A program made the position numbers and the translations under genes. Source: a virus. Taken from it: a DNA stretch of 46,022 nt. Shown piece after piece: positions 541 to 45,540 of the stretch. Position 1 is the first letter of the stretch. Every line of letters begins with the position of its first letter. The stretch is taken from IMG/VR virus record IMGVR_UViG_3300022822_000032, positions 1 through 46,022 of that record; one strand, 5' to 3'. The notes below the pieces were generated by a model. It saw only the letters and a list, made by a program, of their open reading frames with translations. It searched no databases and was not told the DNA's origin.

Positions 541-618
541 CTGTGTGTAATATCAATCTGGTAGATGGCTCCCCTTGGACGGGAGAGGTTGTAGGTTCAA
601 ATCCTACCGCGCAGACCA
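541..618 (+). tRNA. tRNA-Pro (UGG)-like gene with encoded CCA
   Basis: A near-canonical cloverleaf can be drawn. The acceptor is CTGTGTG (541-547) with CGCGCAG (608-614), seven pairs including two G-U. The D-arm is TATC/GATG around AATCTGGTA. The anticodon stem is CTCCC/GGGAG with loop CTTGGAC (574-580), so the anticodon is UGG (576-578). The T-arm is GTAGG/CCTAC with loop TTCAAAT, followed by ACCA. C1-G72 and A73 fit bacterial tRNA-Pro. Two features are odd: three bases instead of two between acceptor and D-stem, and A rather than G 3' of the anticodon. It would decode CCN, mainly CCA/CCG, in late mRNAs. Confidence 0.75.
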
Positions 619-29083: not shown

Positions 29084-31024
29084 TTAGTGAATCTCATACC
29101 AATCGTTACCGATTTGGGCTTCCCCTGCATGGGGACATAATATCTTGTAGAATATACCTGCATCTACTATACATCTTTCTGCTATCTCTGCTACTACCTC
29201 TGCTATCTCTGTCCTACATTCTATTGTGTACTCATCGTGATAGAAGCATACTATCCCATAGTCCACACCCCACACATAGCCCTTAGCTTTTAGTCTCTTG
29301 TATAACATACAGTACGCGGCTGACATCATAATGGCCTCGTCTGATTGTAACATGTATACAAGTATCTGATGCTCAGACTTAATGAAGATAGGTCTACCGT
29401 CTAGCCCTGCTATCCATCCGTTGTAATACTCTTTCTTACCCCATGCGTTAGTCCTAGACTTAGCGTTAGACTTCCACTCCTCTGTCAAGGCTTCAACTAA
29501 GGCTTCAAAACCTGCGGCTACTGATAGTAATGCTTTACGTATCTTAGCACCAGCTTCCTTACCTTTGTTAAGGGTTGCCCCTAGTTTGTTATCACTAGCA
29601 CCAAACATAAAGGCATAGTTGAGGGTCTTTGCTTGTCCATAAGTAACATTAAAACCAGCTACTATTTTGATAGCTTTCTGGTTTACTTGGTGTATTGATG
29701 TACCTTTTTTCTTATCACCATTGATAAGGGTATCGGTAAAGGTGTCATCACCTACTCTTGCGGCTAACATCCTGTTCTGACAACCTGCACTATCACAGCC
29801 TACCAGTGTCATACCTTCTCTTGAGATGAAACACTTACGCATTTGCTTACCGAAGAAAGACTCTACGTTAGGTACGTTAACAATACCTGCATGTTTCATA
29901 CGTCCAGTGGTTGCTATCCCACTAACTCTGCTACCTATGCTTCCATCCTCTCTTATCAGTTTTAGCCAACCTTCGACTGTACTACGTCTGTGTCTACACT
30001 GAACACGTTTAGCGATAAGTTTACCGATGCCACCAGCAACCCCGTTAAATGGGTCATCATAAGAAAGCTTAGGACTAGTCCGTATCTTCTGGCCTTGCTC
30101 ATCTCTTACCTCCCTGCCGTCTACTTTCTTGTAATTCCATACGTCAGGTATCCAACCATCATTAAGTAGATAATCTTTTACCTCCATGTTACTGTCTAGG
30201 CTTGTAGTTCTAAAACTGATACGACTAAAAGCACCAGAAATATGGCTGGTATTGAGGCCATTATCAAGGCTATCAATCCAGTCAACGCACTGCTTGGTAA
30301 CACTACCAGATATTTTAAAAGGTTTTGAAACAAACCTATACTCTCCCTTAACTTTGGATTCTCCTATTACCAAAATCTTAGGGAGATGGGGGATAACATT
30401 CCTGTCAATCCTGTCCATCCAGTGTGTTAGTCTGCCTATACATGTTTCCATATAATCTCGGTCAACTAACCAACCATAGTCCTCTTGTTTTTGGAGAATC
30501 TCAAATAGTTTAAAGGTGAGTAGGTACGCATCTCGCCAACTCTTACCTTTACCTTCCTTCAATAATGCTAGGTAGGTAAGGTGAGTAATCTCTACGTCTT
30601 CTGTACAACGGTGTAGCATTTCAGGGCTATACTGTGACCAGTCCTCATGGTCAGGCTTGCCTCGTCCAACACGGTATCCCCAAGCACCTAAGGAATGTGG
30701 ACCTACTCTGCTTGGTGGCATGTTGAAAGGCTTGAGCCTGTCAGGATTAAGAAGTCGTGACATTAGTAAGGTGTCTACTACTTTGCCTTTAAATTTGTAT
30801 CCGTATAACTTGTGCAACAGTGGCAGGTCATAGCCTATACCATTGTGCATAATTACAACGTCTACGTTATCGAGATGTTCAAGAAGCATCGGTACGTAAC
30901 CAACGTGGTTGCTAGAGAACTTGAATACCTCTTTAGTGTGTATGTCTTTAAACACACCACACCAACTCTGTGTAACATCACTAAGCAAACCATCTGCTTC
31001 TAAATCAGCTACCTGTACCCGCAT
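29084..31024 (-). CDS. DNA polymerase, family A (T7-like)
   Basis: This 646-residue protein has an N-terminal 3'-5' exonuclease (D7/E9 in 'VADLEADG', 'MHNGIGYDLPLL', 'TEDVEIT') and a polymerase domain: motif A 'VGCDSAGCQNR' (D411), motif B with K466 and 'TLNYAFMFG', motif C 'YHDEY' (H596-D597-E598). Tyr470 takes the place of E. coli Pol I Phe762, as in T7. It replicates the genome with the primase-helicase, SSB and exonuclease nearby. It overlaps the sigma-like gene by 20 bases. Confidence 0.95.
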   Translation of the reverse strand: MRVQVADLEADGLLSDVTQSWCGVFKDIHTKEVFKFSSNHVGYVPMLLEHLDNVDVVIMHNGIGYDLPLLHKLYGYKFKGKVVDTLLMSRLLNPDRLKPFNMPPSRVGPHSLGAWGYRVGRGKPDHEDWSQYSPEMLHRCTEDVEITHLTYLALLKEGKGKSWRDAYLLTFKLFEILQKQEDYGWLVDRDYMETCIGRLTHWMDRIDRNVIPHLPKILVIGESKVKGEYRFVSKPFKISGSVTKQCVDWIDSLDNGLNTSHISGAFSRISFRTTSLDSNMEVKDYLLNDGWIPDVWNYKKVDGREVRDEQGQKIRTSPKLSYDDPFNGVAGGIGKLIAKRVQCRHRRSTVEGWLKLIREDGSIGSRVSGIATTGRMKHAGIVNVPNVESFFGKQMRKCFISREGMTLVGCDSAGCQNRMLAARVGDDTFTDTLINGDKKKGTSIHQVNQKAIKIVAGFNVTYGQAKTLNYAFMFGASDNKLGATLNKGKEAGAKIRKALLSVAAGFEALVEALTEEWKSNAKSRTNAWGKKEYYNGWIAGLDGRPIFIKSEHQILVYMLQSDEAIMMSAAYCMLYKRLKAKGYVWGVDYGIVCFYHDEYTIECRTEIAEVVAEIAERCIVDAGIFYKILCPHAGEAQIGNDWYEIH

Positions 31025-31499
31025 ATCTCTCCTTAACTTTCTTATTAAAGCGAGTGATGATAGTCATAACAGTGCTCCTAGAAAGGTCTAGGATTTCCTG
31101 TATTTCTTTAGGCTTGTAGTTGAGTGGGTAGTACAGAGTAAGTAGCTCTACGTGCTGTGGGTTGCCTTCTGCGGCTATCATCTCACGTATCTCATTCTTA
31201 CATGCTCTGACAGTTTTACCATCAGGGCTACCACCTTCCTTTACTTCGTCAAACTCCATACACATGCCGTAGTTCATCTCATCGCGCTTGAAAGCTTTTA
31301 GTGCATTGTTGAGGATAGCGTTCATCCATGCACCGAACTCTTTCTTGTTAGGGTCAAAGCTATTGGCATACTTGATTGCTCTGGCAAACCCTTCTGATAC
31401 TACATCTTCTGCATTCCATGATGTACCAGCTCGGTTAGTAAAGCGTTTAACTAATGTGCCATGCTCTTTTCTAAAATATTCTTCAATCATCTCGTTCAT
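31005..31499 (-). CDS. ECF-type sigma factor-like protein
   Basis: This 164-residue protein has a region-2-like N-terminal half ('WNAEDVVSEGFARAIKYANSFDP', about 28-50, then 'FGAWMNAILNNALKAFKR', about 55-72) and a region-4-like HTH at the C-terminus ('YKPKEIQEILDLSRSTVMTIITRFNKKVK', about 128-156). No region 1.1 or 3 is seen. It probably redirects host RNA polymerase to middle or late phage promoters, the role known for gp36 of phiEco32. It is transcribed with DNA polymerase, so it would appear after the first early genes. Confidence 0.75.
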   Translation of the reverse strand: MNEMIEEYFRKEHGTLVKRFTNRAGTSWNAEDVVSEGFARAIKYANSFDPNKKEFGAWMNAILNNALKAFKRDEMNYGMCMEFDEVKEGGSPDGKTVRACKNEIREMIAAEGNPQHVELLTLYYPLNYKPKEIQEILDLSRSTVMTIITRFNKKVKERYAGTGS

Positions 31500-35497: not shown

Positions 35498-36550
35498 TTA
35501 GAAATCATCATCTACATCATCCTCGTCAAAAAACCATTCCTCTTTCTTCTTAGGTTTATTTTCCTCTGCTCTATCGTCTATAACAACAAACTTGGGAGCA
35601 CGACCGTTAATCTTAACATTCTCAGGATGTGGCATAGGCGGTGGTGGAGTAGGGTTCATAACCTTCTTAAACTCTGCCCTCTGTTTATCATTAAAGAGGT
35701 CTTTTTTATCTACCCATTGAACACTACCAAGATTTTCTTCTGTTTGATGCCAATCACCAGCGTAGGCTACTTCTTGAGCACGCCACATAGCCTCTCTCGC
35801 ATCATCCTCTGATATAAGATTGGTAATTCTTTCATGGTCAGGTAGTATCATTTTACACATACCCTCCCAACCATGCAAGCTAAACTGAGACACAACATCT
35901 TTAGGGTCAGAGAACTTACTAACGCTAAGACGTATAGCCTCGATAGCCCCTACCCAATACATAAAGTAGTCAATGTCTGTAGTAGTCTTCATACAACGAA
36001 ATTCTATACTACCGTAGCTGAATAAAGATTTTAAGTTTATCGCACTGTAACGAATAGCGTCAGTCTTGAGATTCATTAGGCTACCACGGTTAAGGGCCGC
36101 CTTTACTCTTTCCAACACTCTTTGACAGTCTGCGGTACGTAAACAAAACAGATTACCTACTCTCTCCTTGCCACAATATTCCACTAATCCATTCTCAAAC
36201 AGTAGGCATAGTGTGTAGAATGTCCACATTTGTTTGAGAGTAAAGTCCTGCATGTTGACATGCAAATGACTACCTGCTCGCTTACTGTCGCTTATAACTG
36301 CCTGATTCTCTTCTAAGGCTTTGAACAGCCTACGTACCTTTATGCCAGTACCGTTGAAGGTGCAAGGCTTGCTAAAAACATACTCAGCATTACTCTTACG
36401 TAGACTACCGTCCTCCTCGCATCTCCAACCTAATAGGTTTAGGCGAGGTACAAACGTACCCTCTAATTCTAATTCAACACCGAAAGTGCCCTTGTAGTGA
36501 GCACGCTCAGGTATTCTAAAATATTCCTTAACAGTTGTATCTAAGTTCAT
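35498..36550 (-). CDS. Amidoligase (GCS-like COOH-NH2 ligase)
   Basis: This 350-residue protein has the amidoligase-2 pattern of glutamine-synthetase/GCS-like ligases: GVELELEG (24-31) with three Glu for metal/ATP, 'EEDGSLR' (about 45-51), 'AGSHLHVNM' (about 92-100), 'RYSAINLKS' and 'GSIEFRCM' (about 180-187). Such enzymes join a carboxylate to an amine with ATP. The C-terminal 60 residues are Pro-rich and then acidic (ends DDVDDDF), possibly a disordered tail. It is the last of the ligase/amidotransferase cluster. Substrate unknown. Confidence 0.85.
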   Translation of the reverse strand: MNLDTTVKEYFRIPERAHYKGTFGVELELEGTFVPRLNLLGWRCEEDGSLRKSNAEYVFSKPCTFNGTGIKVRRLFKALEENQAVISDSKRAGSHLHVNMQDFTLKQMWTFYTLCLLFENGLVEYCGKERVGNLFCLRTADCQRVLERVKAALNRGSLMNLKTDAIRYSAINLKSLFSYGSIEFRCMKTTTDIDYFMYWVGAIEAIRLSVSKFSDPKDVVSQFSLHGWEGMCKMILPDHERITNLISEDDAREAMWRAQEVAYAGDWHQTEENLGSVQWVDKKDLFNDKQRAEFKKVMNPTPPPPMPHPENVKINGRAPKFVVIDDRAEENKPKKKEEWFFDEDDVDDDF

Positions 36551-37104
36551 TTTAATCTCTCCTGTAACATCTCGGTTAAGTGTTGAAATCTTGGCTCAAG
36601 TTGGAAGCTAAGGTCAGGCTTGATAGTGCCTACCATAGACCCTTTGAACAGTAAGTAGTATCTACCCTTAGCCACTATGCAAAACTCTTTACTAAAAGCT
36701 TGTTCAGTGTCCTCAGGTAACTCAAAACATTCCTTTACAGTAGGGTAAATGTTCAACAGCATTTTCAAAAACTGAGGGCTAAAGCAATCAACAGCGCCAT
36801 TAGTATTCTTCAATGCCCTTATGTCTATACCTTGTTTCCATCTACGTTCTGCCTCCCTAGACACATAGCTACATCTGCCGTAGTTATTGACATTTCCTAG
36901 TTTTAGATTGCCAAAACATATTTCCTCTAAATCAATAGCAGACTTAGCAATCTTACCGTCTACATTAATACAAGAGGAATAAACTATTACCTGCTTGTTT
37001 ACCATGTCGAGACTGCTGTATTTGTGTAAACACTCGTTATGTAGGAAACATGTTCCTGAAAGTCTGCCAGCTATGAATCCTAAGTCGTCTTTCTCAAAGA
37101 GCAT
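36547..37104 (-). CDS. Hypothetical protein of the amidoligase cluster, 185 aa
   Basis: It is coupled to both ligase genes by overlaps of 4 and 11 bases. It has seven Cys spread along its length and a mixed alpha/beta pattern, with no motif I recognise. The tight placement between two COOH-NH2 ligases suggests that it is a partner, carrier or substrate of that pathway. Confidence 0.65.
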   Translation of the reverse strand: MLFEKDDLGFIAGRLSGTCFLHNECLHKYSSLDMVNKQVIVYSSCINVDGKIAKSAIDLEEICFGNLKLGNVNNYGRCSYVSREAERRWKQGIDIRALKNTNGAVDCFSPQFLKMLLNIYPTVKECFELPEDTEQAFSKEFCIVAKGRYYLLFKGSMVGTIKPDLSFQLEPRFQHLTEMLQERLK

Positions 37105-37930
37105 ATAGTCTCTCCTTTAATCCTCTTACACCTAGTCTCTCGCATACCACTTCCGTATAATATCTTCTATTGGGTTGGCTACTATCTGTTAAAACTTTCT
37201 CCCACTCACCAACACTTCTAGGTGAATCTGAAACGAATGCCACCTTACCTCCTACAAGCTTTGAGTGTACCGCTGTAATTACATCGTACACTATATCCAT
37301 CTTTTCTTTACTCTCCAACCAAGCATTAGAGAGAACTCTATACTCAACACCGTAAGACTTAGGACGATAAGCCCCTAAAGCTCCGTAAAGCTGACGTCTT
37401 TTCTTGTCTGAATCCCACAAGCAAGACAACAGATACAATGTGCTATCCAATGCTTTCACAAACAACTCACAATCTTCTAAATGAGATTGACTTTCTATGT
37501 CCATGCCCTCTGTCCACCCTATGTGGACATGCCCTGCACCAGTACGGAAAGATGTTTCCGCATTAGGTCTTGGGTTAGCTTTACCTGTCCATGCGTTATA
37601 GTCAGGCTCACAGCCAAGAATCTTGGCCTCATCTGGTTGGCTTGCTATATACTCGAAGCCAAACTCTGCGGTAGGGACTGCTACCACATCATAGTCGGGA
37701 CACATACCCTTTAGGGTAGACATAACAGTCTGTAAATTATCTACAAACTCCTCTTTACTCTTGGCTGGGTCTATATTGAACTCCAATGCCATACCGTCTA
37801 CCTGCACCGCCCCTTTGTCTACAACAAAAGGATTTTTCTTATCGCCTTGCACCATACCATGTGCTGAAATAAATTTACCACTAGTACGGTCTTGTACGAA
37901 TAACTCTGGGTCTGCTCCAACTAATAACAT
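37094..37930 (-). CDS. phiEco32-like COOH-NH2 ligase
   Basis: This 278-residue protein starts GADPELF (5-11), continues with 'DGMALEFNI' (about 45-53), 'FRTGAGHVHIGW' (about 128-139) and 'LGAYRPKSYGVEYRVLSNAWL', the hallmarks of the phage-type COOH-NH2 ligase family first noted in phiEco32-like viruses. The Glu and His/Arg residues in these motifs form the ATP/metal site by analogy with glutamine synthetase folds. It should make an amide or peptide bond in a small metabolite or on a protein. It lies between the 185-residue protein and the amidotransferase. Confidence 0.85.
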   Translation of the reverse strand: MLLVGADPELFVQDRTSGKFISAHGMVQGDKKNPFVVDKGAVQVDGMALEFNIDPAKSKEEFVDNLQTVMSTLKGMCPDYDVVAVPTAEFGFEYIASQPDEAKILGCEPDYNAWTGKANPRPNAETSFRTGAGHVHIGWTEGMDIESQSHLEDCELFVKALDSTLYLLSCLWDSDKKRRQLYGALGAYRPKSYGVEYRVLSNAWLESKEKMDIVYDVITAVHSKLVGGKVAFVSDSPRSVGEWEKVLTDSSQPNRRYYTEVVCERLGVRGLKERLYAL

Positions 37931-37944
37931 AATGTTCTTCCTAA

Positions 37945-39234
37945 TTAATAATCGTTAAATTCAATGTTGAGGAATTGCTGAACATCCTCAAAATCCTGAC
38001 AAGCTCCACAGATAAACTCATCTCTTGCCAGCCAATGTAACTCATGGCTTTCCTCCACCTCAGTTGAGTCAGAGCACCAAGCACAGCCTTTCTTAGTACT
38101 TGCATTGAACTCAGCTTCTGTGATGGCTACGTTATTGTAGCCTAATAACTTTTTTTCATCAGCTCTATTACCTCCCTCAGGTTCTTCTTTAACAACTTCT
38201 ACTAAAGTACGTTTGTCACCAACCAAGTAAGACCAGCCTTTCATGTTCTTAACTTCTTTAATAGTAATAGCATACCTTTTGCCTTTATTAGCAGGGTTCA
38301 TTACTCTTTGCATAATTTCAGACTCACGCTCTGTGTATACCCTCATGCTTGGTGAACCAAAGCCTCCAACATTGCCTGCAAAATACCAAACAGTGTTGTA
38401 ACAGCCTTCATAAGTAGGTTCAAACTCTACCACTTGACCTTTTATTGGCAAAGGGGTTAAAGTCTCTGGCTTTTTTACAACGTGATTTACAGCGTATACA
38501 TAAGGCTTAAAAGCATGTTCCTTTTGATTGATAATAGTAACATTGTTACGCATATCTACAACCTTCTCACCTTGAGTAGGTATTCTGATTTTTATCTGAA
38601 TGTTAGGTGCTAACATCATCATCTTCTGGCAGTACAAAGCTTTCTTACCTGAACGAGTAGTAGCTACGTAAGACATCCACTCTTCGCTAGACCAGTACAC
38701 TGCCTTGTTATCGTCTGAATAAGAGTAATACAAGTCACGCTCACTGTTACGTATCAGGTTAATAGTCTTATCAGAACTGTCGTACCAACTTAAAGCATAA
38801 GCACCGTCCAACATACCAAGCGTTTTCTCTATGCCGTGAATATCTATGTTGTGAAAGATTGCTTCGCTGTCTGTATGGTAATCTAAAGCATCGTCTAGCA
38901 AAGCCTTACGTTTCAGTGTGCCGTTATGAGCACCAATAACTGAACCTGCCTCAAAAGGGTGAGCATTAGCGGCATTAACACTGCCTACTGTTGCATAACG
39001 ATTGTGTCCCATCAGTGCATTGTTTTTACCACGCATTGCCATATCAAAGGATTTGGTATCAAATAGGTTACAAGGTGAACCCACTGTCTTTACCAAGCCA
39101 AAGTCACCATTAGGTGCTACTGAACAAACACCAGTACTGTGTTTACCACGTACCACATCCAAATGAAGTAAAGTTTTGAACACATTTTCGTGGTCTACTG
39201 TTAAATCTCCTACCATACCAACTAATCCGCAAAT
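37945..39234 (-). CDS. Class II glutamine amidotransferase, probable AUU start
   Basis: From the first ATG (39216) the protein lacks the catalytic N-terminal Cys. Six codons upstream the frame reads ATT TGC GGA TTA GTT GGT ATG, i.e. (M)CGLVGM, the normal start of an Ntn-type amidotransferase, and AGGAGG lies 8 bases before the ATT (39234). The rest is intact: HNRYATVG (R79, T82), HNG (N104, G105) and TDSE (D122). Residues about 200-360 are unassigned, and a four-Cys zinc site lies at C384, C387, C409, C412. No ATP-pyrophosphatase SGGxDS domain is seen, so it releases ammonia for a partner ligase. It is 429 residues with this start. Confidence 0.85.
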   Translation of the reverse strand: MCGLVGMVGDLTVDHENVFKTLLHLDVVRGKHSTGVCSVAPNGDFGLVKTVGSPCNLFDTKSFDMAMRGKNNALMGHNRYATVGSVNAANAHPFEAGSVIGAHNGTLKRKALLDDALDYHTDSEAIFHNIDIHGIEKTLGMLDGAYALSWYDSSDKTINLIRNSERDLYYSYSDDNKAVYWSSEEWMSYVATTRSGKKALYCQKMMMLAPNIQIKIRIPTQGEKVVDMRNNVTIINQKEHAFKPYVYAVNHVVKKPETLTPLPIKGQVVEFEPTYEGCYNTVWYFAGNVGGFGSPSMRVYTERESEIMQRVMNPANKGKRYAITIKEVKNMKGWSYLVGDKRTLVEVVKEEPEGGNRADEKKLLGYNNVAITEAEFNASTKKGCAWCSDSTEVEESHELHWLARDEFICGACQDFEDVQQFLNIEFNDY

Positions 39235-39238
39235 GGGC

Positions 39239-39682
39239 CTATCCTCCTAAAGCTTCCGCTTTAATTTTATTTAAAATATATTCAACCCTTTTGGGTTTAA
39301 TGTTTAGGTGACTAGCTATATCTTTATAACTAGCACCATAGTTTCTTAATGTTTTTATCTTAAAGGTATCTCCATCTACTACATGACCTCTTGACCTACC
39401 TCTCTCAACCCTATCTCCAACATTTTGTTGAACTGTACCTATCACAAGATGCTCAGGGTTTACGCAGGTAGGGTTGTCGCAGGTATGTCTTACAATTTTA
39501 CCATCAATACTAATATTCCTTGTAAGTTGATAGACCAGTCTATGTACTTTTATATTGGAATTACCTTTAAAACTCATCCTTGCATACCCATCGGTATTTA
39601 GGCATCCTGTCCATTCCATACAACCCAACACAGGTATTGTCACTGTTCTTTCTAGTATCTTTTTTAGAGTATCGTTACTCAT
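39239..39682 (-). CDS. HNH/His-Me finger homing-type endonuclease
   Basis: This 147-residue protein has 'GYARMSFKGNSNIKVHRLVYQL' core strands (about 32-53), the His-Me motif 'VRHTCDNPTCVNPEHLVIGT' (about 64-83) with zinc Cys and His, and a C-terminal HTH ('GASYKDIASHLNIKP', about 115-129). This is the plan of free-standing phage homing nucleases. It sits between the 123-residue gene and the amidotransferase with its own promoter-like repeat, and its last codons (TTA GGA GGA TAG) contain the ribosome site of the amidotransferase. It was probably inserted into the operon. Confidence 0.85.
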   Translation of the reverse strand: MSNDTLKKILERTVTIPVLGCMEWTGCLNTDGYARMSFKGNSNIKVHRLVYQLTRNISIDGKIVRHTCDNPTCVNPEHLVIGTVQQNVGDRVERGRSRGHVVDGDTFKIKTLRNYGASYKDIASHLNIKPKRVEYILNKIKAEALGG

Positions 39683-39712
39683 GTGCGGTTCTCCTAATTA
39701 TTTGTCCTCACA

Positions 39713-39748
39713 CATAGTACTATCTATATTTTAAGCAATAGTGCTCAA
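39713..39748 (-). promoter_or_regulatory. Promoter-like repeat D (leftward, before HNH/amidotransferase)
   Basis: Leftward it reads TTGAGCACTATTGCTTAAAA then TATAGATAGTACTATG, matching repeat A at TTG.G.ACTATT, GCT.AAAA and GATA..TACTA with the same spacing. It lies about 30 bases upstream of the HNH start codon at 39682. The gap from the previous gene is 70 bases. Probably a promoter; the -10 is not certain. Confidence 0.55.
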
Positions 39749-39752
39749 AACA

Positions 39753-40124
39753 TTATAACTCTCCTTCTATTAATCTGTCTAAAAATAAATCCATGTTAAA
39801 AGTCAATCCAAAACAACCGCTATCCAACCTGTAACCACTTGGGGCAAAAATGGCTTTAGGGAACAGTTTTACTGTTGTGCTAATATCCTCTCCTTTTTGC
39901 GTTCTACGACTTGCAATCTCAGTCTGAGAAATTTGCTCAGGAGAGTAGCAAAGCTCTGCCATCTCTTTAAGCAAAAGCTTACGTAGTTCTTCTTTAACTA
40001 CACCCTTAACAGCCTTGTCAAATAACTCTTCCTTAGTTTTTTCAGGAATTTCTACAGCAAATGACATCCCAGATTGAGCATACTTTTCTTTACTCCTGAA
40101 TATTTTAGGTATGAACTTTAACAT
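39753..40124 (-). CDS. Hypothetical protein, 123 aa
   Basis: It is the last gene of the ATP-grasp sub-operon, coupled to the previous gene by one base. It is Lys/Glu-rich with a long central helix ('FDKAVKGVVKEELRKLLLKEM', about 35-55). No motif is recognised. Confidence 0.6.
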   Translation of the reverse strand: MLKFIPKIFRSKEKYAQSGMSFAVEIPEKTKEELFDKAVKGVVKEELRKLLLKEMAELCYSPEQISQTEIASRRTQKGEDISTTVKLFPKAIFAPSGYRLDSGCFGLTFNMDLFLDRLIEGEL

Positions 40125-40369
40125 TAGAATTTACCCCTTTCATAAGCCAAATAATTTGCTTTTAATTCAATTGCATGGAGAAAGTATCTATAATTTAAGT
40201 TATCCATAGTATTAAAAGAATTTCTTACTACCTCAAGAGTCTGCTCTAAATCATCATTCCTTACATGCTCCTCCGCTTCCTTCTTATCTAAGAACTCTAA
40301 GTTCTTTTTTAATGAGGAAGGGTCATCTTCAAATACGATATACACCTTTTTAGTTTTAATCTTTAACAT
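40124..40369 (-). CDS. Hypothetical protein, 81 aa
   Basis: It is coupled to the ATP-grasp gene and to the next gene by one-base overlaps. It is an acidic small protein with a beta start ('KVYIVFEDD') and helices after it. The coupling suggests work together with the ATP-grasp enzyme, for instance as a small partner or substrate. Confidence 0.6.
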   Translation of the reverse strand: MLKIKTKKVYIVFEDDPSSLKKNLEFLDKKEAEEHVRNDDLEQTLEVVRNSFNTMDNLNYRYFLHAIELKANYLAYERGKF

Positions 40370-41211
40370 TACTCTCCCCTCACCATTGCATCACCGTTAA
40401 TTGCAGGATGGATAAACTTCTTATAACCACCACGTTGTTCTACTAAAGGAATACGTTCCTTACCATGCTCTAAGATGTAGTCAAAAGCCTTAGCCATTGT
40501 CTCCTGTCTATATGGGCTTGTAAGGGACGGTGCTGAGTTAATCTCTAATACATAGGCATTGCCCTCTGCATCAGCCATAATGTCCACACCACCGAAGTCA
40601 AGAGCACTGAGGTTGAATGCTTCGATAGCCACACGAACAGACTTGAGAGGCCAGTTATCCCATGATACATTATCGAATCTGCCACCTCTGGCAACATTCC
40701 ATGCTATATCATTAGGGTCAGAAGGTGTCTTTTGGGCTACTGATACCACCCTACCCTGTACTACAAACACCCTATACTCAGCAACTTTTCTGATATAAAG
40801 GCTGACATAATACATCCCCAATTGCATACAGCGTTGAATTAACTCATGACGTGTATGCACTAACCACAACTTTCTACCTTGTGCATGTTTAGCAGGGCGA
40901 ATGATTACGCCAGTCTGTAGTGCATCGTCAGGTACATTGCGGTGGTCTGTCCATGTAGTAGGACTAAGCCCTGCATCTGCTGTTTTAACACGAAAGTTAA
41001 GCTTATCGTTAACCTCACTGATAGCCTTAGCTTTGTTTAATACCTTAGCATCAGGCACAGGTAGCTCAGAAGTACAACCCCAACGAATATACATATCGTC
41101 TACAGGTATACCTTTGTCACTACGACACCATGCTATAGCTTTCTTACTAAAAGTAGAGATACCCTTTGCACTACTTCTTCCCAATAATCTACGTCTAACG
41201 ATAGTAGTCAT
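40369..41211 (-). CDS. ATP-grasp ligase (RimK-like)
   Basis: This 280-residue protein has the ATP-grasp pattern: 'VIIRPAKHAQGRKLWLV' (about 102-118, lysine and glycine-rich loop), 'EYRVFVVQGRVVSVAQK' (about 145-161), 'NVARGGRF' (about 172-179) and the metal-binding 'DFGGVDIMADAEGNAYVLEINSAPSL' spread over about 207-232 (D212, E225, N227). Such enzymes ligate an acyl phosphate to an amine, often adding amino acids to peptides. It overlaps the amidotransferase-I gene and is a core member of the ligase cluster. Confidence 0.85.
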   Translation of the reverse strand: MTTIVRRRLLGRSSAKGISTFSKKAIAWCRSDKGIPVDDMYIRWGCTSELPVPDAKVLNKAKAISEVNDKLNFRVKTADAGLSPTTWTDHRNVPDDALQTGVIIRPAKHAQGRKLWLVHTRHELIQRCMQLGMYYVSLYIRKVAEYRVFVVQGRVVSVAQKTPSDPNDIAWNVARGGRFDNVSWDNWPLKSVRVAIEAFNLSALDFGGVDIMADAEGNAYVLEINSAPSLTSPYRQETMAKAFDYILEHGKERIPLVEQRGGYKKFIHPAINGDAMVRGE

Positions 41212-41852
41212 TACTTATCTCCTAATAGTTTATACACCAGTGTAAAGAAATATTCTCTACACTCACCTTCTTCAAACTCAGGATGAGGTTGAAAACATAA
41301 CACATTGGACTCAGGGTATGCCACAACTTCTACATCCACGTTGGAATATCCAGCATCATCCACAACCTTACCTTCTGACACATACTCCTTGACAGTAGCA
41401 CAAGTACCATCCGATTGTCCAATAAGAGTCCCCTCTGCCCCCACACGCATCATTTGATGGTGAGTTGATGTAACCGCCCACCTCTTACCTGTTGGTAGGT
41501 CTAAGAGGCCATGAGTGCCTCCTATGGCATGATTGTTTACATGTTGGTACAGTTTACCACCACACATGACATTCAGGAACTGACCACCACGACATACACC
41601 TACCATAGGTATGCCTTGAGCTTTGAATACATTGAACCACTCAGACTCAACTTCATCCCTTTGTAAGCTGTTACCTGTCAGAGGGTGTTTACCTTCACCG
41701 TACAAGTGAGGGCTTACATCAGAACCGCCAGTGAAGCACACTAGGTCAGCCTCATTAGAGTTGTAGGTCTTTTCGAATCCCTCAGACCTAAACATGTGGG
41801 CATACTGGCATGTGCCTATACTTCCTACAATAAACACTTTAACCTTTGACAT
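41211..41852 (-). CDS. Class I glutamine amidotransferase / gamma-glutamyl hydrolase-like
   Basis: This 213-residue protein has the flavodoxin-like GATase-I fold with the triad C87 ('VGVCRGGQFLNV') and H190/E192 ('QPHPEFE'), plus 'FTGGSDVSPHLY' (about 40-51), as in peptidase C26 or GuaA-type GATases. It would release ammonia from glutamine, or cleave gamma-glutamyl bonds made by the ligases. It overlaps neighbours on both sides. That two unrelated amidotransferase types occur in one cluster is notable. Confidence 0.85.
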   Translation of the reverse strand: MSKVKVFIVGSIGTCQYAHMFRSEGFEKTYNSNEADLVCFTGGSDVSPHLYGEGKHPLTGNSLQRDEVESEWFNVFKAQGIPMVGVCRGGQFLNVMCGGKLYQHVNNHAIGGTHGLLDLPTGKRWAVTSTHHQMMRVGAEGTLIGQSDGTCATVKEYVSEGKVVDDAGYSNVDVEVVAYPESNVLCFQPHPEFEEGECREYFFTLVYKLLGDK

Positions 41853-43913: not shown

Positions 43914-44555
43914 TTAGAAGTTAGGTTCTTTATCAGTAACTTCCATAGTTTCATCTTCACAAGGTATTTCTTCTATCTCACCCATAGCTTCAATAACCAT
44001 ATCGGCAGTGAGCATGTCACTTGATAGCATTGCAAGCATAACATCAGATATACTTAGACCACCTTTTTCAATAGCGGATTCTACAGCAGACGTGATACGC
44101 TTAGAATAATCTATATCCTTGGCCTTTACTTCTACAGTATCAGAGAACGTCCATATGTCATTAGTCTCAATGTCAAGCCAAGTATAGATAGCGATAGCTT
44201 TAGTATCGTATACACGTTTGTCTTTTTTGCTAAACACTAAGGCTTCACGCTTGCCTTTGGCACTGATAATGAAAGCTTGAGTGTCATTCCAGTTAGACTT
44301 AAACGGTACGAATTTGTAGAAATACTGGCAAGCCAAGCGCCAATTCATAGGCGTCAATAAGAACTTGCCATTTTCATCAGTGCCAAGTAAACGGTTCACT
44401 GGACGTACATCGTTGTTATTGTCTAGCATATACAGCAAAACAGAACGCGATAGTTCACCTAGTATCTTGTTAGTAATCACTTCTGCATTGGCTAATACAG
44501 TGATACTGGCTTCGATTTGTTCGAAAGTTTGCACATCTTTATTGATTGTAGTCAT
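43914..44555 (-). CDS. First early gene product, 213 aa, unknown
   Basis: I choose ATG 44555 (MTTINKDVQTF...) with AAGTGAGA upstream; a GTG at 44567 is possible. The product is a soluble alpha/beta protein with 'LTPMNWRLACQYFYKFVPF' (about 68-86) and an acidic C-terminal tail ('EEIPCEDETMEVTDKEPNF' region). As the first gene behind the 1.3 kb early control region, it should be expressed immediately after infection. A host-takeover or anti-defence role is reasonable to suspect but not shown. Confidence 0.7.
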   Translation of the reverse strand: MTTINKDVQTFEQIEASITVLANAEVITNKILGELSRSVLLYMLDNNNDVRPVNRLLGTDENGKFLLTPMNWRLACQYFYKFVPFKSNWNDTQAFIISAKGKREALVFSKKDKRVYDTKAIAIYTWLDIETNDIWTFSDTVEVKAKDIDYSKRITSAVESAIEKGGLSISDVMLAMLSSDMLTADMVIEAMGEIEEIPCEDETMEVTDKEPNF

Positions 44556-44729
44556 GGTAATTCTCACTTAATAGATTGATTGAAAGGATATTCAGAAGTA
44601 AATATCATAAATAGCACCCTGAATTAAGAATGCTATTGAGTTATTCACTTGTTTTTTAATTGTCATTTTTACGGTCTGACTAGCTAAATTCACCTTGTCA
44701 AGGTTACTCGAAGCTATTTAAAACCATCC

Positions 44730-44815
44730 CACTGCTAGACACAAAACTACCCTTGTTTCTAAGTCATTACTAGGAATAAAAAAGAAAGTACTATCGTTCC
44801 TCTATTCTAGCAGTG
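44730..44815 (-). repeat. Inverted repeat after boxA a
   Basis: CACTGCTAGA (44730-44739) and TCTAGCAGTG (44806-44815) are perfect 10-bp arms enclosing 66 bases. In RNA they would form a long-range stem behind boxA a, like a processing stem. Confidence 0.5.
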
Positions 44816-44827
44816 CATTCATGTATA

Positions 44828-44860
44828 TTGTTAAAGAGCACAATTGGCAAGCTGTAATTG
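44828..44860 (-). promoter_or_regulatory. boxA cassette a
   Basis: Leftward, hairpin CAATT(10 nt)AATTG (44860-44841) is followed at once by TGCTCTTTAACAA (44840-44828), identical to the boxA of E. coli rRNA leaders. It is the cassette nearest to the first early gene. A long inverted repeat (44730-44739 with 44806-44815) follows 12 bases later. Confidence 0.65.
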
Positions 44861-44979
44861 GTCAACCTATCCTAAGGACGGATTGATTCTAGTAGGCTAA
44901 AAGGATATAAATATCTACACTTTAACGGCGTACCTCACAGGGGATTGATAGCCCTATGAGTTATCCGTATGTTTTGTGC

Positions 44980-45076
44980 CATTAGGTTATTTTCAAATAC
45001 TTGTCACTTGTGTCATTAACCTTGCCTAGCATGTCAATGCAATGGGCGCAACTATATTGTGAACCGTAACCTAATG
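44980..45076 (-). repeat. Inverted repeat after boxA b
   Basis: CATTAGGTTA (44980-44989) and TAACCTAATG (45067-45076) are perfect 10-bp arms enclosing 77 bases. The distance from boxA b is 26 bases, longer than in cassettes c and d. Confidence 0.45.
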
Positions 45077-45102
45077 TTACTTTTTCTACTTCACTTGCCA
45101 AA

Positions 45103-45137
45103 TTGTTAAAGAGCGTTACTACTTGCTACATAAGTAA
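45103..45137 (-). promoter_or_regulatory. boxA cassette b
   Basis: Leftward, TTACT(12 nt with GCAAG)AGTAA (45137-45116) precedes CGCTCTTTAACAA (45115-45103), followed by TTTGG as in rRNA leaders. AT-rich DNA with TTGAAC lies upstream. An inverted repeat CATTAGGTTA (45067-45076 with 44980-44989) follows. Confidence 0.65.
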
Positions 45138-45188
45138 GACGTCACACTTTCAATAAAGTTCAAACTAATTAAAAATTAATTCGAATGA

Positions 45189-45263
45189 GGTTTGTTACTG
45201 CATTGTGTACCGCCTAAGCTAAGTATCATATAGTCACCTTGTGACCAATACATATAACAAACC
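45189..45263 (-). repeat. Inverted repeat after boxA c
   Basis: GGTTTGTTA (45189-45197) and TAACAAACC (45255-45263) enclose 57 bases that contain a second hairpin, GTCAC(aag)GTGAC on the minus strand. The stem starts three bases after boxA c. Confidence 0.5.
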
Positions 45264-45266
45264 GAA

Positions 45267-45296
45267 TTTTTAAAGAACGTGTAAAACTTGCTTACA
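45267..45296 (-). promoter_or_regulatory. boxA cassette c (variant)
   Basis: Leftward, TGTAA(GCAAGTT)TTACA (45296-45280) precedes CGTTCTTTAAAAA (45279-45267), the GTTCTTTAAAAAT form of boxA known from other gammaproteobacterial rRNA leaders. Three bases later the inverted repeat GGTTTGTTA/TAACAAACC (45255-45263 with 45189-45197) begins. Confidence 0.6.
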
Positions 45297-45355
45297 ATAC
45301 TTAGTCAACTGGATTCGAAATAAGTTCAATTTAATTTCAAACTAATTTCAAATCA

Positions 45356-45425
45356 GATTATTCACCATCCCACATTCAGTACGCTAATACCTTTAACCTG
45401 TTAACTGGTTACATGGTGAATAATC
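45356..45425 (-). repeat. Inverted repeat after boxA d (possible structured RNA)
   Basis: GATTATTCACCAT (45356-45368) and ATGGTGAATAATC (45413-45425) are perfect 13-bp arms of a 70-base element. The loop holds a smaller TAACC/GGTTA hairpin. It begins three bases after boxA d. It could be a small structured RNA or a processing stem. Confidence 0.5.
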
Positions 45426-45428
45426 AAA

Positions 45429-45461
45429 TTGTTAAAGAGCATGTAAACATCTTGCTTACAT
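45429..45461 (-). promoter_or_regulatory. boxA cassette d
   Basis: Leftward, ATGTAA(GCAAGATGT)TTACAT (45461-45441) runs into TGCTCTTTAACAA (45441-45429), again identical to the E. coli rRNA boxA. Three bases later a perfect 13-bp inverted repeat begins (45413-45425 with 45356-45368). Confidence 0.65.
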
Positions 45462-45540
45462 AGATAAGAGTACAACAATAAGAGATAGTTCAATCTTATT
45501 TCAAATTAATTAAATATCTTTATGGATAGGCTAAAATCAT

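Follow-up and report, generated by a model that had tools for sequence, protein, structure and literature searches.

Why would a phage place four copies of boxA, an element that it shares with rRNA operons, in the leader of an early operon? The window examined here, the whole 46,022-nucleotide stretch of DNA, comes from a Zobellviridae-like podovirus whose terminase is ~61-72% identical to those of Zobellviridae. The members of that family behind this comparison are oyster-associated phages, Vibrio VP41s3, ICP2, the Pseudomonas PA11 group, and Salinivibrio CW02. A sequence-only reading had proposed four boxA cassettes in noncoding DNA ahead of a leftward operon of roughly 22 kb. The operon is borne out by identifiable genes, all on the minus strand, running from 44567 to ribonucleotide reductase (21914). 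Its first early gene occupies 43914-44567 (minus strand), and its content includes DNA polymerase, helicase, a sigma70-domain protein, and ribonucleotide reductase. The ~0.9-kb leader at its start is untranslated and indeed noncoding, as no ORF within 44568-45465 exceeds 39 aa (minus strand) or 22 aa (plus strand). This leader is AT-rich (GC 34% vs 41%) and holds TTGAAATTA-type repeats. No phage RNA polymerase was found among the window proteins scanned. Likewise, scans of the early proteins, which covered a subset, turned up no homologue of N or Q; small early proteins of no assigned function remain.

The leader gave no DNA match among GenBank phages, and relatives were therefore sought through the terminase and by pattern scans; IMG/VR holds a 98%-identical fragment of the window phage (G002). 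In the order in which leftward transcription would read them, the features are:

45475-45504, minus strand: candidate promoter of cassette 4, TTGAAA-18-TATTGT (consensus scans, weak)
45441-45461, minus strand: hairpin of cassette 4, ATGTAAGCA-AGA-TGTTTACAT, flush with boxA (fold z -4.12)
45429-45440, minus strand: boxA 4, GCTCTTTAACAA (exact match)
45413-45425, minus strand: left arm of stem 4, GATTATTCACCAT (p 0.005 vs shuffles)
45356-45368, minus strand: right arm of stem 4, ATGGTGAATAATC (stem scan and local fold)
45280-45296, minus strand: hairpin of cassette 3, TGTAAG-CAAGT-TTTACA (local fold)
45267-45278, minus strand: boxA 3, GTTCTTTAAAAA, full GYTCTTTAANA match (exact match and consensus)
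45254-45263, minus strand: left arm of stem 3, GGTTTGTTAT (p 0.14 alone; fold z -2.68)
45189-45198, minus strand: right arm of stem 3, GTAACAAACC (stem scan and local fold)
45119-45137, minus strand: hairpin of cassette 2, TTACTTATGTAGCAAGTAG (hairpin scan)
45103-45114, minus strand: boxA 2, GCTCTTTAACAA (exact match)
45093-45101, minus strand: left arm of the long helix from boxA 2 to boxA 1, TTGGCAAGT (fold z -3.38; p 0.006)
45067-45076, minus strand: left arm of the inner stem of cassette 2, CATTAGGTTA (fold and G002 alignment)
44980-44989, minus strand: right arm of the inner stem of cassette 2, TAACCTAATG (fold and G002 alignment)
44844-44852, minus strand: right arm of the long helix, GCTTGCCAA, with 4 nt between it and boxA 1 (arm-pairing test)
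44828-44839, minus strand: boxA 1, GCTCTTTAACAA (exact match)
44806-44815, minus strand: left arm of stem 1, CACTGCTAGA (G002 alignment)
44730-44739, minus strand: right arm of stem 1, TCTAGCAGTG (stem scan and G002 alignment)
21914-44567, minus strand: leftward early/replication operon behind the leader (protein scans of early genes)

All four boxA copies were recovered exactly where they had been proposed, three as GCTCTTTAACAA and one as GTTCTTTAAAAA. The published consensus of functional gamma-proteobacterial boxA, GYTCTTTAANA (PMC5725501), has exactly four matches on the two strands of the window, and these are the four leader copies. An order-2 Markov model gives a chance expectation of 0.27 matches per strand, and no cluster of four matches inside 650 bp arose in 400 simulated strands, ruling out a chance origin. 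The cassette 3 copy had been described as a variant; as a full match to the consensus, it is instead a regular boxA, and its 11-mer, GTTCTTTAAAA, is an active boxA in Legionella CRISPR arrays (PMC7862264). A search of the window leader for boxC (ATCTGTGTGGG-like) after boxA gave no match, and an Rfam scan returned nothing relevant, only an insignificant RUF4 match.

The proposal that a hairpin precedes each boxA holds in position, with one ending 0-8 nt 5' of every copy, but not evenly in strength. The hairpin is strong at copy 4 (9 pairs, flush with boxA), fair at copies 3 and 2, and weak at copy 1. Similarly, the GCAAG ascribed to three loops is present in hairpins 4, 3, and 2, but is partly paired in the predicted fold of copy 4. 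Across the whole cassette set (window and other phages), 5' hairpins are enriched over nearby positions (p 6e-7), as are sigma70 promoters upstream of boxA (p 5e-4). The clearest promoters, TTGACA-N17-TATAGT in CW02 and T5S1, lie 26-29 nt 5' of boxA, and a good sigma70 promoter stands ~20-55 nt ahead of most boxAs in CW02, KZY1, T5S1, T2S1, and VR7901. Promoters of the window are weak by consensus, and their count over the whole region is not clearly above background. An overlapping TTGAAC is located at the -35 region of cassette 4, TTGAAC also occurs 5' of cassettes 3 and 2, and the consensus scan gave no promoter for cassette 1.

Two features absent from the earlier account lie on the other side of boxA: a predicted stem 3' of each copy, and a boxA-helix-boxA order within the leader. 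The left arm of each stem begins 1-12 nt past boxA, and the stems enclose 44-240 nt. Collectively they exceed shuffles in Zobellviridae (Fisher 9e-11) and in other phages (1.5e-6), while those of several cassettes are not significant singly. In the copy 1 stem, 3/10 pairs differ on both sides between the window and G002 with pairing kept; the inner copy 2 stem reads CATTAGGTTA/TAACCTAATG in the window and CATTATGTTA/TGACATAATG in G002, one double change (read by eye). These compensatory changes, drawn from two sequences only, support the predicted stems. Local folds compared with shuffles gave z values of -4.1, -2.7, and -3.4 for copies 4, 3, and 2, and -0.2 for copy 1, which is no more stable than shuffles. 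At copies 4 and 3, the local fold leaves boxA essentially unpaired between the hairpin and the stem. When the whole leader is folded at once, parts of the boxAs become paired; only the local folds were counted as structural support, as the whole-leader fold scrambles boxA accessibility.

In the majority of arrays, the penultimate stem has a right arm that runs up to the last boxA, producing the boxA-helix-boxA order. The gap between this arm and the last boxA is 0-4 nt in the window, KZY1, T5S1, CW02, and O4, and 13 nt in ICP2; for the last boxA pair of T2S1, helix pairing was not significant. We tested this abutment on all neighboring boxA pairs against sliding controls, and it holds only for last pairs (Fisher p 1.7e-7, vs 0.12 for earlier pairs). 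Outside Zobellviridae, all others together gave p 6e-4 for the last-pair helix, with AAPEc6 and K1E displaying 19-nt helix arms that end 2 nt ahead of the last boxA.

The earlier reading knew of no other phage with four copies in one leader. The layout is not peculiar to this phage: Zobellviridae relatives, oyster phages among them, have two to four copies in tandem, and so do SP6-, T5-, and T7-like phages. Among the relatives, arrays stand at the start of the early operon, also where leader sequences are unlike, with four copies in G002, three in CW02, and two in ICP2. T2S1 has three copies, PA11 two, and phiPLS27 one. Imperfect copies contribute to the counts of KZY1 (three, one imperfect), T5S1_444551 (four, two imperfect), and Pseudomonas O4 (two, one imperfect). 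Klebsiella VR7901, Pseudomonas DMTU_1, and Citrobacter CVT22 have a single boxA. With most or all of the record searched, no array was found in Vibrio 468E53, 521E56, 1.264, and VPMCC5, VP41s3, RIO-1, 1.015, P12053L, T5S1_18163, T4S1_776450, or GP100, so the array is not essential to the family. For array-bearing genomes, the two-mismatch rescan covered the surroundings of their leaders only, and short metagenome fragments are not informative on absence.

Beyond the family, at least 120 IMG/VR contigs carry one boxA form; among the matches listed, a hairpin directly abutting boxA on its upstream side is frequent, and about fifteen contigs have a second boxA close by. One degenerate pattern found nothing in IMG/VR, and Rfam on related loci gave nothing relevant. 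Named phages equivalent to such contigs are Vibrio phage Vc1, with four boxA copies and a T7/N4-type RNA polymerase gene downstream; Pectobacterium My1 and Proteus PM135/Stubb, with a T5-type DNA-transfer gene nearby; and the AAPEc6/Vectrevirus group, in which 162 records match the AAPEc6 region by DNA. K1E has three boxAs. T7 has one full-consensus copy, GCTCTTTAACAATCTGG, which starts at position 813 between host promoter A3 (750) and gene 0.3 (925); neither record annotates boxA. The first RNase III site of T7 is also located in the A3-gene 0.3 region and is likewise without annotation in the record used.

Several observations stand apart from this argument. In the window, the minus-strand gene at 31005-31499 encodes 164 aa that include a sigma70 region 2 domain and, weakly, a region 4; the product is possibly a phage sigma factor for later genes. 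Early genes within 35498-41852 (minus strand) encode an S6 glutaminyl transferase-like protein along with glutamine amidotransferase-type proteins and two proteins of the amidoligase/COOH.NH2 ligase type, which may together form a cluster for peptide or surface modification. A tRNA-Pro gene (anticodon TGG) lies at 541-618 (plus strand), near the left end of the contig. In viral contigs L045, L073, L099, L028, and L129, boxA is upstream of or between phage tRNA genes (placed by eye in the last three). In both PA11 (L257, 1048-1269 and 1365-1514) and K1E (L401, 1719-1931), helices flanked by boxA enclose small ORFs between their arms, and the record of PA11 ORF055 mentions a resemblance to a protein of phage LKA1. 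A further motif, AGTCAARGATAAAGACGTTAAAAC, is 24 nt long, has CC directly after it in most cases, and occurs in 22 IMG/VR contigs and several Zobellviridae leaders (L190 ~2900-2940, L250 ~1570-1610, L251 394-420, L258-L279). On either side it has arms that vary in sequence but are complementary (e.g., CATAAAGAGA...TCTCTTTATG in L260); without an Rfam match in the loci scanned, it is a candidate undescribed phage RNA motif. Lastly, the Pseudomonas O4 leader and phiKMV-like phages, otherwise unrelated, have in common a 60-95 nt element of 75-85% identity holding GTGTAAGGCCGGCAGGCATC, located upstream of the first boxA in L199 and at 1079-1173 in L252.

We conclude that the leader is probably a tandem series of rrn-type antitermination cassettes that would operate with host factors only, in the manner of neither N nor Q. 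This assignment draws on the fit of all four copies to the functional consensus, the rrn order of hairpin and boxA, the enrichment of 5' hairpins and sigma70 promoters near boxA, post-boxA stems that exceed shuffles and covary, and recurrence of the array in relatives with unlike leaders. Host sigma70 RNA polymerase would start at several closely spaced early promoters, and the nascent RNA from most starts would soon carry a boxB-like hairpin and boxA. Recognition of boxA by NusB-S10, together with NusA, NusG, and SuhB, would render the polymerase resistant to Rho, enabling transcription of the ~0.9-kb leader and 22-kb operon without a phage N or Q protein. Rho protection would be needed because the leader has no ORF above 39 aa, and repetition of the cassette would supply a boxA to transcripts from internal promoters as well. 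The post-boxA stems, and most of all the helix that separates the final two boxAs, would mimic the rRNA leader-trailer helix and may protect the RNA or be an RNase III target. From sequence, we infer NusB/S10 binding, Rho resistance, promoter activity, and RNase III cutting of the leader. Antitermination by host factors alone would explain why promoter and boxA are paired, why the leader is untranslated, and why no N or Q was detected. Counting against it are the weak window promoters, the fold of cassette 1, the paired boxAs in the whole-leader fold, the absence of boxC, the several Zobellviridae without an array, and the small early proteins, which could be antiterminators.

How do other explanations fare? 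An abundant leader RNA might titrate NusB/S10 off rrn operons, lowering rRNA synthesis and freeing RNA polymerase, as the sequence-only reading had also suggested. Four consensus copies on one RNA, and arrays of two to four in many phages, would suit such a role. However, most copies in relatives follow their own promoter, as cis action predicts and as favors antitermination over titration. Single copies recur too (T7, VR7901, CVT22, DMTU_1), and the boxAs stand ahead of the early operon, not in a separate gene for a small RNA. We thus consider titration quite unlikely as the main function, while it may be a side effect of a cis-acting array. Alternatively, the helices could be the essential element, with boxA mainly aiding the pairing of distant arms (as proposed for rRNA), RNase III releasing stable RNA pieces or small mRNAs, and antitermination being secondary. 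No feature of the arrays is as regular as the helix separating the last two boxAs, PA11 and K1E enclose small ORFs within it, and the stems covary; yet the stems of several cassettes fall short of significance alone, and helices by themselves do not explain why the exact NusB/S10 sequence is kept. A primary role in processing is unlikely, and titration and processing could both act alongside host-only antitermination.

The hairpins might instead be boxB sites for an unrecognized N-like peptide, which we regard as very unlikely. Some loops are GNRA-like (VR7901 GTGA, DMTU_1 GAAA), and small early proteins without assigned function do exist, but the hairpin is 5' of boxA, as in rrn, whereas nut has a 3' hairpin. 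Moreover, hairpin sequences and loops vary among the cassettes of one genome, unlike a single peptide target. Finally, the AT-rich leader and its repeats could recall replication origin iterons or operator sites. Simulation excludes chance, and what stays conserved in differing phage surroundings is the rrn boxA, oriented so that transcription into the operon reads it; we give DNA-level repeats or chance virtually no weight.

Each component of the cassettes is known biology; the recurrence of the arrays across phages is surprising. Tentatively, and with somewhat more doubt than belief, several lytic gamma-proteobacterial phage families may carry mini rRNA-operon mimics (promoter-boxB-boxA-helix-boxA-helix), a protein-free antitermination and RNA-processing module that perhaps competes with rrn for NusB/S10. 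The arrays suggest a way in which lytic phages that lack N and Q might shield untranslated early RNA and long early operons from Rho, and would link Zobellviridae and SP6-, T5-, and T7-like phages to the host rRNA antitermination machinery. The compact, helix-flanked cassettes could also serve as small models of the boxA/leader-trailer system. In the open-licence literature searched, neither tandem nor helix-flanked boxA is described for the leaders of lytic phages, which makes the layout provisionally novel.

Among known systems, lambdoid nut sites also place boxA and a hairpin in a phage early leader, with more than one site per genome (three in mEp021; PMC11893012). In nut, boxA precedes boxB and a phage N-type protein is needed, whereas in the window the adjoining hairpin is 5' of boxA. 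The T7 early leader differs in having one boxA copy only. In natural and synthetic CRISPR-array leaders, as described in PMC7862264, citing Stringer et al., a promoter-near boxA keeps long untranslated RNA transcribed; this boxA is single, bacterial, and outside phage early operons. The suhB leader shares the setting of an mRNA leader outside rrn, but has one copy in a short leader, where the Nus complex represses the gene via translation-dependent/Rho effects (PMC5725501).

The cassettes also have a counterpart in rrn itself, as read in genomes of Vibrio, Shewanella, Alteromonas, and others. Order, consensus, and hairpin match, as had been claimed for the host rrn leader, but the phage cassettes are nearer to the 16S-23S spacer. 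There, the boxAs of these genera read hairpin-GCTCTTTAACAATTTGGAAAGCTGA, with boxA then TTTGGAAAGCTGA, while 16S leaders read boxA...ATCTGTGTGG. The window copies resemble this spacer form more than the 16S leader form, with hairpin and boxA commonly followed by GG after four nt; many phage copies share the GG. Phage and rrn boxAs share the 11-12-mer, a 5' hairpin, an untranslated transcript, and a site after predicted sigma70 promoters that are clear in several relatives and weak in the window. The phage array differs in leading into mRNA with no rRNA, in having up to four copies and no boxC, and in its helix, which is much shorter and starts within about a dozen nt of boxA, whereas the rrn helix lies far downstream. 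The resemblance, as judged from sequence, is thus a likeness of layout and does not imply descent. Around 16S rRNA, a leader boxA, a helix, and a spacer boxA follow in order (PMC10250234), and successive phage boxAs with a helix between them repeat that arrangement.
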